Source: Roridomyces roridus
Taxonomy: Eukaryota > Basidiomycota > Agaricomycetes > Agaricales > Mycenaceae
Assembly: GCA_029378245.1 (NCBI GenBank)
Contig: JARKIF010000008.1
Span: 496,001-560,000 of the forward strand
DNA: 64,000 nt
Reading direction: 5' to 3'
A model generated the notes under the pieces. The model was not told where the DNA came from. It worked only from the letters and a program-made list of their open reading frames with translations, and did not search any database. Each line of letters begins with the position of its first letter. Within the stretch, counting starts at the first letter, position 1. A program made the translations under genes and the position numbers. Of this stretch, positions 9,104-59,458 are shown piece by piece.

Positions 9104-10626
9104 ATGGTAGCTTCGGTGAAGGACCTGAGGCTTATTCTTGAGCTCTTCTTTCCTCCAGAGCTGGCCATGCAACAAGCTATCTATGTCCTCAGTGTCCTCA
9201 TCACCCTCTACCCCATCTTTCTGCTACACTCCAATCAACTTAACGAGGCCCGCCGACAAGCACCTCTTACGGGATGGAAGAAGACAATTCAAGTCCTCTT
9301 GACTCGAGCCTTTGAGGACGAGGCCAATGGAGTGGAGGCATGGCTCACAGGGATAAACTCGGCCTCAGAGTACACAAATTACATCTGTGCGGATATAGAC
9401 AAACTATACCTGCTGTTGGGTCTCACGCATGCAAATTCCGACCCTTCCTCCTTTGCCTTTCGGTCCCCTCCCCCCATCCTCACAACCTCCAGACTCAACT
9501 GCCGCTACTGCCCTCCAGCACATCGCAACCTCATCCCATCATTGCGCTGTCGCCGCAAGGGCAAAATGCAGTCCATCTGGGTGCTCAATTCATCCTTTGA
9601 ATGGGAGTCAGCCACCCTGGTTGTTGGTCACTGCACTACCTGCAAAGCCGACTATTATCCAGATAGAATTACGCGGGTTGGGACAGGAAGGGAGCGTGCG
9701 GAGGTGCTCGAGTACGACGCAGAGTATCTCCGTGTCTCCAAAAGTGGCATCTGGGTACATCGGCGAATTGCATTGGCTCAGGAAAAGGCCTTGCAATGTT
9801 ACCATTCTGGCTGGTCAAATTTTGCAGACTGGATCAACGGGCTCACCCAAGATATCAATGTCACTTTCACTTACCGCCAGTCGCAGCGGCTTTTCCTAGA
9901 GCATTTTTCCCGGCGCCTCCTCATTTCCCACGATAAATCGACCACATTCACCTGTACTGCTCACTCTTCATCAAAAGGTCTTGCAGAAAAAGTTCGAGCG
10001 GCGATTGGAATAAACCACGGCGTCATACCATCCGCGATGCATCATGGGTGCATGGATTGCACGCATATCAAACGCTATCACAGCGGACCGCCGGTGGGAG
10101 ATGGTACAGAAGTGGTTGGGTCGGAAGCTGGTCCTGCTACTGCGGTGCGCTTGTCAAATTCAAAATTGCATGTCAAGCTGACTTTCAATAGATGGATGAT
10201 GCTGCCGTTGAAGCTGCTCCACTTCCCGCAAATTTGCCAGAGGTGCTGGCTCAACAGCCTGCTCCTGCGGAAGGTTCTCCCAGGGGCTACGCGCGTTTGG
10301 CCGTTATGGATGGAAAATCTCTCACACACAGGGTAATTGTGAACTAGTGCCAAAATAACTCTCGAAGCTGATGTTTCCTCAAGAAATGCGCCCTTGATGT
10401 TTGCGAGCGGCCTCTCTACAACTACAAGAATGGGCGCTTTTGCGAAACTCACCTGGACCTGCGCTCTAAGTGCGGGATTATTCCATGCGGCCGGGATGTG
10501 CGATCTTCAGAAGACCTTACCTGTGATGATGCCACACATATTGCATGGTACAAGCAGTATGATGATCGGTTCCACAGGTTATCCTTTCCTGGAGTACAGC
10601 GCGTAATTCTGTTGGAAAATGGCTGA
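9104..10626 (+). CDS. KDZ-transposon-associated CxC5/CxC6 cysteine-cluster protein, 3' truncated
   Basis: Exons 9104-10144, 10192-10332 and 10384-10626 join in phase to 474 codons. An N-terminal helical region is followed by a CxC5-like cluster (LNCRYCPPAHR, then GHCTTCKADYYPD), a middle part with GHCTTCKA-type cysteines and CMDCTHIKRY, and a CxC6-like C-terminus (MDGKSLTHRKCALDVCERP, GRFCETH, KCGIIPCGRDV, FPGVQRVI). In known proteins these clusters precede a KDZ transposase or its integrase-like core. Here the frame runs into an inserted tRNA-bearing LTR unit at 10610 and stops 17 bp later, so any catalytic part is missing. I found no KDZ core elsewhere in the window. Family assignment is from memory of the cysteine patterns. 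Confidence 0.7.
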
Positions 10627-10732
10627 AGCAGGATTCGAACCTGCGACCTTCTCAGTATATTCGAGATGCTCTTTAACCAACTGAGCTATTCTGCCGATAG
10701 TGTGAAGGGAACTCCCAGAAGGACCTTCAACA
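10610..10732 (-). mobile_element. 123 bp mini-LTR unit carrying a tRNA-like gene, copy 1
   Basis: The unit is bounded by TGTTGGAAAATGG and CCTTCAACA, the same TGTTG...CAACA ends as the copia LTRs nearby. Almost its whole body is a tRNA-like gene on the minus strand. It interrupts the CxC6 reading frame at 10610, which supports a real insertion. After 10732 comes CTCCCCCG, which on the minus strand is a polypurine tract of the kind that precedes a 3' LTR; the same bases follow the copia LTR at 11075. A 29-base T run then separates it from the next LTR. Confidence 0.65.
10620..10695 (-). tRNA. tRNA-like gene (anticodon position reads UAU), possibly a pseudogene
   Basis: The minus strand folds as a 75-nt cloverleaf plus discriminator A: acceptor GGCAGAA/TTCAGCC with an A-A mismatch at 4:69, D stem GCTC/GAGC, anticodon stem TCTCG/TGAGA, T arm GCAGG/CCTGC. 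Box A (TAGCTCAGTTGG) and box B (GGTTCGAATCC) are intact, and four Ts follow. The anticodon loop AATATAC has A instead of U at position 33, so decoding as tRNA-Ile(UAU) is doubtful. Pol III transcription is still plausible. Confidence 0.6.
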
Positions 10733-10740
10733 CTCCCCCG

Positions 10741-10769
<29 letters not shown>
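10741..10769. repeat. 29-base poly-T run
   Basis: It lies between the tRNA-bearing unit and the copia LTR at 10777. It could be the poly-A scar of a minus-strand retroposed copy or simple slippage. Confidence 0.8.
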
Positions 10770-10772
<3 letters not shown>

Positions 10773-10776
10773 GTGA

Positions 10777-11074
10777 TGTTGAAGCAGGCAGCACAGATGA
10801 ACTGAGGTCAACAGTGAGAAACTCTGTATTGGTGACTATGAAACTACATGCCTGAGGTCAACAGTGAGAAACTGGGGACCTAGGCTACATGACAGCTGAC
10901 TATATACTTGTCAGAACAAAAGGAAGTCCTAATTGGTAAATACAATAGGAAAGAAGCATATCATGGGAGAATTCCCATGTCAGATGAATATCAGAAACAC
11001 GGTCACATGACCAGAACACGAGAATGCCATCAGTGCATCAATCAATATCATCAGTTGATCAACAACTTCCAACA
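10777..11074 (-). repeat. Copia LTR type A, 298 bp, minus orientation (3' LTR)
   Basis: On the plus strand it reads TGTTGAAGC to CTTCCAACA. The flanking CTCCCCCGGGACC is, on the minus strand, a polypurine tract directly before the LTR, so this is the 3' LTR of the minus-strand RT fragment. Further copies are at 13497 (inverted), 36216, 36661 (inverted) and 41581. Confidence 0.85.
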
Positions 11075-11100
11075 CTCCCCCGGGACCTGGGCAGTCTCAC

Positions 11101-12412
11101 CTAGCTCCCCCGGATTCCCATAAGTCCTAGTAGACGTTCCAGAGCAAGACGAGGGAGGGGTTTTGTGAGCAAGTCAGCTAGCTGCTCCTGGGTTGGCACA
11201 TATTCAATGTGAAGAGTGCCTCTGGCCACTTCATCTCGAAGCCAGTAGTGAGCAAGGTCAAGATGCTTCATTCGACCATGGTGCTCAGGATTTTTGGAGA
11301 CTTGAATGGCAGACTGGTTGTCCATGTAGATCACAGAACTGCCAAACACCTTGTACCCCAGTTCCCATAGCAAATTGCGCACCCATTTCATCTCCTTGCC
11401 TGCATCCACTCCTGCAATGTACTCTGCTTCAGTGGTGGAGAGCGATACTGTAGACTGCAGCTTGCTCTTCCAGCACACTGGTGCACCATTCATCATGACA
11501 ACATATCCACCTGTGCTTTTCCCAGTGTCTTTGCAGCCACCATGATCAGCATCAGTGTAGGTAATGAAGGAAGTGCCAGATGGTGATTTAGTGTAGGTGA
11601 GTTTGTAGTCCAGAGTACCTTTGACGTAGCGGAAGAGATGCTTCACAGCTTTCCAGTGGGCTTCACCAGGATTGCTATTGAAGCGGGAGAGGATGCCAAC
11701 AGCAGTGGAGATGTCAATGCGCGTTTGGGTAGCCAGATAAAGAAGAGATCCAACTGCAGAGAGATAGACAGATTTGTACTGCTTGGACTCCTCTTCAGTC
11801 TTGGCTCCCATTTCCTTGGTCAGGACAAGCCCAGGAAGCATTGGAGTGCTCACTGGCTTGCAATCCGACATGTTGAACTGCTCAAGCATGTTCACAGCAT
11901 ATTGGCGCTGTGAGAGAGAGACGGTGCCAGCCTCAAAATCACGCTCAATCTTGATGCCCAGCAAACACTGTGTAGGACCAAGATCCTTGACCTTGAATGA
12001 TTGGCCAAGTTGAGCAATGACCCTGTCTATGTCTTTGTTGTCTTTGGCAGCAATGGTGCCATCATCAACATAGATAGGAAGGATGATCCGCACTTTGCCA
12101 TCATAGTAGACATAGCAAGAGCGATCAGACTGGGTGCACCGGAAGCCCATAGTTAAGAGCTTTGCATTCAGCTTCTTGTTCCACTGGCGGCCAGCTTGTT
12201 TCAAGCCATAGATGGACTTGTTGAGTTTGAGAAGCTGGCCCTTCTCTCCTTGTGGAAACCCTTCGGGCTGAGTCATAAAGACATCCTCCTCCAGGTCTCC
12301 ATTGAGGTAAGCAGATGAGAAGTCAAAGGAACGAAGCTGAAGATCATGCTGAGCAGCCAATGCAAGGACAATGCGCAGGGTGGCAGTTGGTCATGTTCGA
12401 TTTCTCGAAGTG
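11101..12412 (-). pseudogene. Ty1/copia Pol fragment: reverse transcriptase C-terminal part and RNase H
   Basis: The frame reads from about 12400 down to TGA at 11101. Seen: FDFSSAYLNGDLEEDVFMTQPEGF, abbreviated here by its ends; SIYGLKQAGRQWNK; the YVDD catalytic box in ILPIYVDDGT; TDADHGGCKDTGKSTGGYV; LSTTEAEYIAG; and the C-terminal ADLLTKPLP typical of copia RNase H. Protease, integrase and the N-terminal RT are absent. On the minus strand it is joined, by a deletion near 12385, to a gag piece, with a solo LTR later inserted near the joint. The polypurine tract and a type A LTR follow. It cannot be autonomous. Confidence 0.9.
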
Positions 12413-35775: not shown

Positions 35776-35898
35776 TGTTGAAGGTCCTTCTGGGAGTTCC
35801 CTTCACACTATTGGCAGAATAGCTCAGTTGGTTAAAGAGCATCTCGAATATACTGAGAAGGTCACAGGTTCAAATCCTGCTTCAGCCATTTTTCAACA
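35776..35898 (+). mobile_element. 123 bp mini-LTR unit carrying a tRNA-like gene, copy 2
   Basis: It starts TGTTGAAGGTCC and ends TTTTTCAACA, the same length as copy 1 at 10610-10732 and in opposite orientation. The five flanking bases are GAGTG before and GAGTA after, four of five equal, as expected of an old 5-bp LTR-type target duplication. The body is the tRNA-like gene with its 37 bp leader. Confidence 0.65.
35813..35888 (+). tRNA. tRNA-like gene, second copy
   Basis: It is identical to the 10620-10695 copy except in the T arm (ACAGG and GTTCAAATCC instead of GCAGG and GTTCGAATCC), which weakens the first T-stem pair. Boxes A and B remain recognisable and TTTTT follows at 35889-35893 as a Pol III terminator. 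Confidence 0.55.
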
Positions 35899-59338: not shown

Positions 59339-59458
59339 GGCCGGATGACCGAGTGGTTAAGGTGTCAGATTTAAGCCGACTGTCACGTGATAAGGTCACC
59401 TGACCGCGTAAATCCTGATGGGTCTACACCCGCGCGAGTTCGATCCTCGCTTCGGCCA
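59339..59458 (+). tRNA. tRNA-Leu (anticodon UAA) with ~35 base intron
   Basis: The acceptor stem is GGCCGGA with TTCGGCC. The anticodon TAA is at 59372-59374 by standard numbering, the intron is about 59376-59410, the long variable arm is GGGTCTACACCC and the T arm GCGAGTTCGATCCTCGC. TTTTT follows at 59461. A31-C39 looks mispaired. The length without the intron is about 85. Confidence 0.85.

Follow-up and report, generated by a model that had tools for sequence, protein, structure and literature searches.

We report that a 123-bp unit at positions 10610 to 10732 of a 64,000-nucleotide stretch of the Roridomyces roridus genome (assembly GCA_029378245.1, contig JARKIF010000008.1, positions 496,001 to 560,000 of the forward strand; hereafter, the window) is, with a probability of roughly 0.85, the long terminal repeat (LTR) of a 366-bp non-autonomous terminal-repeat retrotransposon in miniature (TRIM) of the Helenus type, which carries a tRNA-like gene in its LTRs and would use RNA polymerase III (Pol III) for transcription and a copia element, acting in trans, for mobilization. 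At the level of sequence, paired LTRs, a primer-binding site, a polypurine tract, 5-bp target duplications, solo LTRs and one uninserted counterpart were all found. The case for the element comes from its other copies in the genome and not from the first copy in the window, which is damaged.

Structure and genomic copies of the element

An initial annotation of the window had pointed to TGTTG...CAACA ends like those of the copia LTRs nearby, an adjoining polypurine-like sequence and a tRNA-like gene with box A, box B and a T run. All of these were recovered: the unit at 10610-10732 starts with TGTTG, ends with CAACA and has CTCCCCCG next to it at 10733-10740, and its tRNA-like gene was accepted by both ARAGORN and Rfam (56 bits for 10620-10695 compared to a gathering score of 29), with both boxes and a TTTT run readable in the sequence. 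A further statement, that the unit interrupts a known reading frame, was not confirmed; the CxC5/KDZ-associated open reading frame (ORF), exon structure aside, stops 273 bases to the left of the unit.

The same annotation had proposed a genome search for the unit, for pairs around a short internal segment and for 5-bp duplications, and each was found. When the genome (90.8 Mb in 501 contigs) was searched with the 123-base unit, at least 40 full-length matches of 98-100% identity were detected (40 of 49 candidates scored), and many of the matches listed were paired about 243 bp apart. The element is composed of a 123-bp LTR, a 120-bp internal region and a second 123-bp LTR, and use of this paired form as a query yielded 12 matches in which all 366 bases were covered; two of these, on C438, had flanks equal to those of two on C68 and were counted as the same loci. 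On the sense strand the layout is LTR (123 bp), TGGTAGCAGCA... 120 bp ...CCGGGGGAG, LTR (123 bp). In the DNA examined, 48 LTR matches were counted (leaving out two further LTR places from the paired-form search), 44 of them end to end, including one with a 12-base deletion; loci with no second LTR represent solo LTRs or broken copies. Across the 44 complete copies, the repeated unit also takes in 37 bp ahead of the tRNA and 10 bp behind it. Ahead of the 3' LTR, the polypurine tract GGGGGAG was present in all ten elements printed, and reads GGAGGAG in the C24 copy, which is outside these ten. The internal region matched nothing in the genome outside the TRIM family, with 18 of 18 matches lying in its copies. 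Tandem arrangement was seen in one partial case (C46:627692-628098), and no long arrays were seen in the DNA examined. For annotation, a warning is in order: when Rfam was used to search the genome (63 of 4178 candidates scored), ends of the TRIM element made up 27 of the 61 tRNA matches that were listed.

Primer-binding site

Genes for the initiator tRNA-Met of the host were sought by pattern; a first pattern had no match in the genome, and a second had 12 matches, four of which are initiator tRNA-Met genes. The 3' end read at these four loci is ...GTTGCTGCTA, to which CCA would then be added, as it is to tRNA 3' ends. In nine of the ten elements printed, the stretch TGGTAGCAGCAACT, which abuts the 5' LTR at the start of the internal region, is the complement of this 3' end plus CCA over 14 nt; the tenth element (C491) deviates within the site. 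A pattern for the primer site, ACATGGTAGCAGC, was found at 17 places (14 in the TRIM family and three others unread) compared to five for a control pattern. The primer-binding site is also contained in a possible short hairpin, TGGTAG-CAGCAA-CTACCA, in nine of the ten elements (e.g., L010:1624-1743), the 3' arm of which, CTACCA, has the same sequence as the terminus of the primer tRNA (CTA and then CCA). This hairpin could regulate priming or could be due to chance. In the copia family that neighbours the unit, the interior opens on GGTTATGGGCCCCG, which matches the complement of the initiator tRNA-Met anticodon arm over 14 nt. Both modes of priming, from the tRNA 3' end and from the anticodon arm, have been described for fungal Helenus and copia elements (PMC10886601, section 3.6).

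Target duplications and an uninserted site

The 5-bp flanks were compared at 25 loci and found to be identical at 15, to match at four of five bases at two, and not to match at eight. Perfect duplications surround 8 of 11 full elements and 7 of 14 solo LTRs, and random re-pairing of the flanks gave a mean of 0.60 and a maximum of 5 perfect duplications in 10,000 trials versus the 15 observed. Outside this count are C438 and C244 (flanks duplicated from C68 and C90, respectively), C46:627733, C469:362725 and C103:20892 (one side internal sequence or missing), and C1:2321009 and C118:16946. Two of the eight duplicated full elements host later insertions and have retained their outer TTTTC and TTTTG.

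The flanks of three insertions were joined and searched against the genome. For the solo LTR on C138, the joined flanks matched C469:372588-372807, 220 bases to 220 at 99%, such that neither an LTR nor a further copy of the duplication would fit at C469; C138 and C469 are either two haplotypes or paralogous stretches.

At C103, one of the two duplicated full TRIM elements with later insertions, one guest is a copia LTR pair with copia primer site and tract and with AAAGA on both sides (the copia middle being read in part). A TRIM solo LTR was also observed within copia pol sequence at C46:630429 (L026:1501-1626), with a GAGAG/CTCTC duplication. Thus, each kind of element inserts into the other. 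On C90 and C244, LTRs separated by about 3.4 kb were considered as ends of a longer coding element with the same LTRs; this candidate was rejected, as each LTR is a separate insertion, with CCGAC flanking one LTR and CGACC surrounding a copia/TRIM LTR pair.

Age and sequence variation

No more than four base differences from the window copy were detected in 43 of the 44 complete LTRs, the outlier being the C143 copy, and the TRIM family is therefore young. Identity to the window copy was complete for 16 of 38 LTR copies (C438 and C244 left out), and of the 10 contiguous pairs outside C438, 4 had two identical LTRs. Judged from these sequences, the family has amplified recently. Seven of the eight CpG bases of the LTR are variable, as would be expected of methylated DNA. 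Among the 38 copies, box A has no substitutions (the C143 deletion removes its first base), and box B is altered in eight, six of these at its CpG.

Putative Pol III signals and proposed mechanism

On the sense strand of ten full elements, runs of four or more T occur only at LTR position 114 of each LTR, one run being five T, and the TTTT ends 6 bp short of the LTR end. In the eight host tRNA genes that were read, the first T run is 5 to 7 in seven, and the eighth has a run of four closely followed by one of five. In budding yeast, a T4 run terminates Pol III weakly and is aided by nearby RNA structure (PMC9278858). A weak TTTT would result in partial termination and so permit an RNA of genome length. 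Pol III use by the TRIM is suggested by its promoter boxes.

The tRNA-like gene departs from an ordinary tRNA in that its acceptor stem has an A-A mismatch and its anticodon loop, read as AATATAC, has A at the position where tRNAs have U33. Four host genes resemble it in the D arm; they were read as tRNA-Ile(AAU), contain an intron and differ from it in the anticodon arm. The pattern by which they were found required the D-arm and box-B stretch, so the likeness to tRNA-Ile(AAU) does not settle the source of the tRNA part.

Under the proposed mechanism, Pol III would start at the tRNA-like gene of the 5' LTR, would pass the weak TTTT often enough to traverse the 120-bp interior and would stop in the 3' LTR at its TTTT or further on, with the tRNA-like stretch serving as the repeated R region. 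First-strand synthesis would be primed by the 3' end of initiator tRNA-Met and second-strand synthesis by the polypurine tract, and reverse transcriptase and integrase would be supplied in trans by a copia element. The tRNA-like gene would act as a promoter and not as a tRNA for translation. A more speculative extension, which we consider doubtful, is that the tRNA-like gene makes up almost the entire LTR, that its TTTT is a built-in switch (with stopping giving a short tRNA-like RNA and read-through a genome of 300-odd nt in which R is the tRNA-like sequence) and that copia integrase can insert a copia end together with a TRIM end in the same integration event.

A possible link to copia elements

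The copia and TRIM elements have in common the TGTTG...CAACA ends and the CCGGGGGAG tract, and the outer 8 bases of each TRIM LTR end, read inward, agree with a copia LTR end of opposite sense, the two ends being exchanged. On C90 and C244 a copia LTR and a TRIM LTR in opposite orientation abut with zero bases between them and have CGACC on both outer sides; these loci have the same flanks and were taken as one, C244 having the appearance of the other haplotype. The simplest reading of the C90 junction is joint integration. If true, this CGACC-flanked junction would be a physical record of a helper moving a tRNA-bearing TRIM. A full TRIM was also observed to abut a copia 5' LTR directly and in the same orientation on C442 (L010:1203-1866), where the second copia LTR is followed by no more than about 70 bp of copia interior and the far end was sought and not resolved. 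A helper with the internal region of the TRIM was not found in the genome search, the 18 matches all being in the TRIM family.

Alternative explanations

Two alternatives that would deny the element altogether have a negligible probability. Were the copies ordinary dispersed tRNA-Ile genes with an LTR look by coincidence, the tRNAs identified by ARAGORN in both window copies, and by Rfam at 27 of the 61 places listed for the genome, would be accounted for; however, the repeat exceeds the tRNA on both sides, is paired around one 120-bp spacer and has 5-bp duplications, and the host tRNA-Ile(AAU) genes differ from it by their intron and anticodon arm, as does the loop AATATAC from the rule of U33. 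Scattered tRNA genes with unrelated flanks and no duplications, the outcome named in advance as counting against an LTR-like unit, are ruled out by the pairs with duplicated flanks and the one uninserted counterpart. A tRNA-derived short interspersed nuclear element (SINE) resembling an LTR unit would share the tRNA head, Pol III boxes and short size, and an A run does adjoin the window copy. No such run flanks any of the other copies that were inspected, and the variable-length duplications and 3' tails of SINEs were not seen in those flanks; exact 5-bp duplications, two LTRs, a primer-binding site and a polypurine tract were found instead.

Two others accept the TRIM and differ on how it is expressed or moved. 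The full-length RNA may be made by RNA polymerase II, from U3 or by read-through from a neighbour, the tRNA-like gene being a passenger or a block to transcription. The TTTT, which would halt part of Pol III transcription within the 5' LTR, and the alteration of box B in 8 of 38 copies favour this possibility, which we regard as unlikely given that box A has no substitution in the same copies (one having lost its first base by deletion) and that the 37 bp upstream of the tRNA-like gene leave little room for an RNA polymerase II promoter. Somewhat stronger, yet still short of even odds, is the proposal that the copia LTR/TRIM LTR junctions result from subsequent recombination or deletion, rather than from joint integration, and are uninformative on the helper. 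A single duplication around both LTRs is seen at one locus only (C90, equal to C244), the far end at C442 being no help, and copia LTRs abut one another elsewhere too, at C2. Against this proposal, zero bases separate the two ends and CGACC is perfect on both outer sides; simple nesting of one element in the other would have produced a further duplication.

Several observations weigh against the interpretation of the unit as the LTR of a Helenus-type TRIM made by Pol III and moved by copia. Window copy 1 has no target duplication, and is one of the 10 of 25 loci at which a perfect duplication was not found; two of the three joined-flank searches of the genome gave no uninserted counterpart. 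The minimum-energy fold of the 76-nt tRNA-like stretch is not a cloverleaf, with 11 of 200 shuffled sequences folding equally well. Rfam and ARAGORN accept this stretch as a tRNA, and the tRNA-like gene may thus be a working tRNA. The tRNA part shows no lower variability than the remainder of the LTR (16 of 76 versus 6 of 47 sites substituted in the 38 copies), so conservation is no argument, and selection cannot be shown at this age. The primer site of the neighbouring copia, complementary to the anticodon arm, is unlike the 3'-end site of the TRIM, and a different copia may therefore be the helper; the internal region matches only its own family, such that no internal homology names that helper.

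Features of the window

Copy 1 in the window consists of a 3' LTR and 8 bp of polypurine tract, beyond which lie, on the sense strand, 29 A, TCACTGT and a copia LTR (Table 1). The stretch at 10741-10776, comprising the A run and TCACTGT between the TRIM polypurine tract and the copia LTR, was absent from the other copies printed. Box B is altered in the second window copy. Apart from the TRIM, a tRNA-like gene with an apparent intron was observed at 59339-59458 (plus strand), for which ARAGORN gives the anticodon tta as Stop and which we take, by its variable arm, to be a tRNA-Leu(UAA).

Table 1. Coordinates of the TRIM copies and associated features (window positions unless a locus is named).
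Feature	Position	Strand	Basis or remark
LTR of tRNA-bearing TRIM, window copy 1	10610..10732	minus (element sense strand)	same sequence as both LTRs of full-length element C491:443821-444186
tRNA-like gene inside LTR (LTR positions 38-113)	10620..10695	minus	ARAGORN Ile-UAU; Rfam RF00005
Box A TAGCTCAGTTGG (LTR 45-56)	10677..10688	minus	sequence reading
Box B GGTTCGAATCC (LTR 92-102)	10631..10641	minus	sequence reading
TTTT, resembling a short Pol III terminator (LTR 114-117)	10616..10619	minus	sequence reading
Polypurine tract CGGGGGAG, sole remnant of internal region at copy 1	10733..10740	minus	match 1-131 to element
29-base A run (T run on plus strand), in place of remaining internal region	10741..10769	minus	sequence reading
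copia LTR, 298 bp, candidate helper kind, TGTTG...CAACA ends	10777..11074	minus	sequence reading
copia polypurine tract CCGGGGGAG, 9 nt identical to TRIM tract	11075..11083	minus	sequence reading
copia reverse transcriptase fragment (RVT_2)	11101..12360	minus	ORF and domain match
CxC5/KDZ-associated ORF, adjoining TRIM, CxC5 cysteine cluster of KDZ transposases	9104..10336	plus	Pfam PF18718, E 1.3e-13
Second window copy: solo LTR, 96.7% identical, flanks GAGTG/GAGTA (4/5)	35776..35898	plus	flank comparison
tRNA-like gene of copy 2	35813..35888	plus	ARAGORN, Rfam
copia LTR/TRIM LTR junction	L029:1203-1623 (C90), L031:90-510 (C244)	opposite orientation	single CGACC duplication

Comparison with known systems

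The initial annotation had proposed a tRNA-bearing counterpart of the plant element Cassandra in a fungus, and this is borne out by the paired LTRs and 5-bp duplications; its suggestion of a new kind of terminal-repeat element is not, as tRNA-bearing TRIMs with 5-bp duplications, fungal families included, were named Helenus by Kojima in 2024 (PMC10886601). The element is thus a genuine tRNA-bearing TRIM of a kind known since then. As far as testable, it is a new family, set apart from the published Helenus families by description and not by sequence, and it could be a copy of a family already listed. In the titles and abstract openings listed by literature searches on the subject, no other tRNA-bearing TRIM is named; a 2026 meeting report cites Kojima (PMC12859917), and a Boletales genome paper, in the passages considered, counts fungal TRIMs with no mention of tRNA in their LTRs (PMC5689174).

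What is of value here is a young, recently mobile Helenus-type element that was found independently, from sequence alone, with a candidate helper nearby. The 2024 paper leaves the questions of whether Helenus RNA is truly made by Pol III, a functional promoter not being concludable without experiments (PMC10886601), and of which copia moves Helenus. With one uninserted counterpart, identical LTR pairs and a copia/TRIM junction, this genome is well suited to both.

Similarly to Helenus, the element has tRNA-derived sequence in its LTRs, no coding capacity and a length, 366 bp, within the published 311-1263 bp (PMC10886601). Its boxes TAGCTCAGTTGG and GGTTCGAATCC fit the Helenus motifs, TRGCY and YGG for box A and GGTTC for box B, respectively. 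A host-tRNA primer site adjoins the 5' LTR and a polypurine tract the 3' LTR; initiator tRNA-Met, by its 3' end, is one of the published primers (PMC10886601). Like the fungal families, it makes 5-bp target duplications (perfect at 15 of 25 TRIM loci). Mobilization by copia, as in those families, may apply here too, the link consisting of shared LTR ends, a shared tract and one joint junction, with no internal homology found. It differs in that ARAGORN reads Ile-UAU whereas the fungal tRNA-encoding families have His or Thr (PMC10886601), and in that its internal region has no match in the genome outside its own copies, unlike LTR-1_PTrit and Copia-9_PGr.

Cassandra is similar in having a Pol III gene within the LTR of a TRIM, but carries 5S rRNA in place of a tRNA, is found in plants and is reported in long tandem arrays (PMC7215508); as an identity for the window copies it was rejected, all three Rfam matches in the window being tRNA and none 5S rRNA. 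Ajax likewise has a small-RNA gene in its LTR and 5-bp duplications, but the gene is a partial 5S rRNA and the hosts are nemerteans (PMC10886601). The neighbouring copia element (window 10777-12360) differs from the TRIM by its 298-bp LTR with no tRNA, its protein-coding capacity and its use of an anticodon-arm rather than a 3'-end primer site, and resembles it in its TGTTG...CAACA ends, its CCGGGGGAG tract, its initiator tRNA-Met primer and a 5-bp duplication, the last seen for the C103 relative with 88% similar LTRs.
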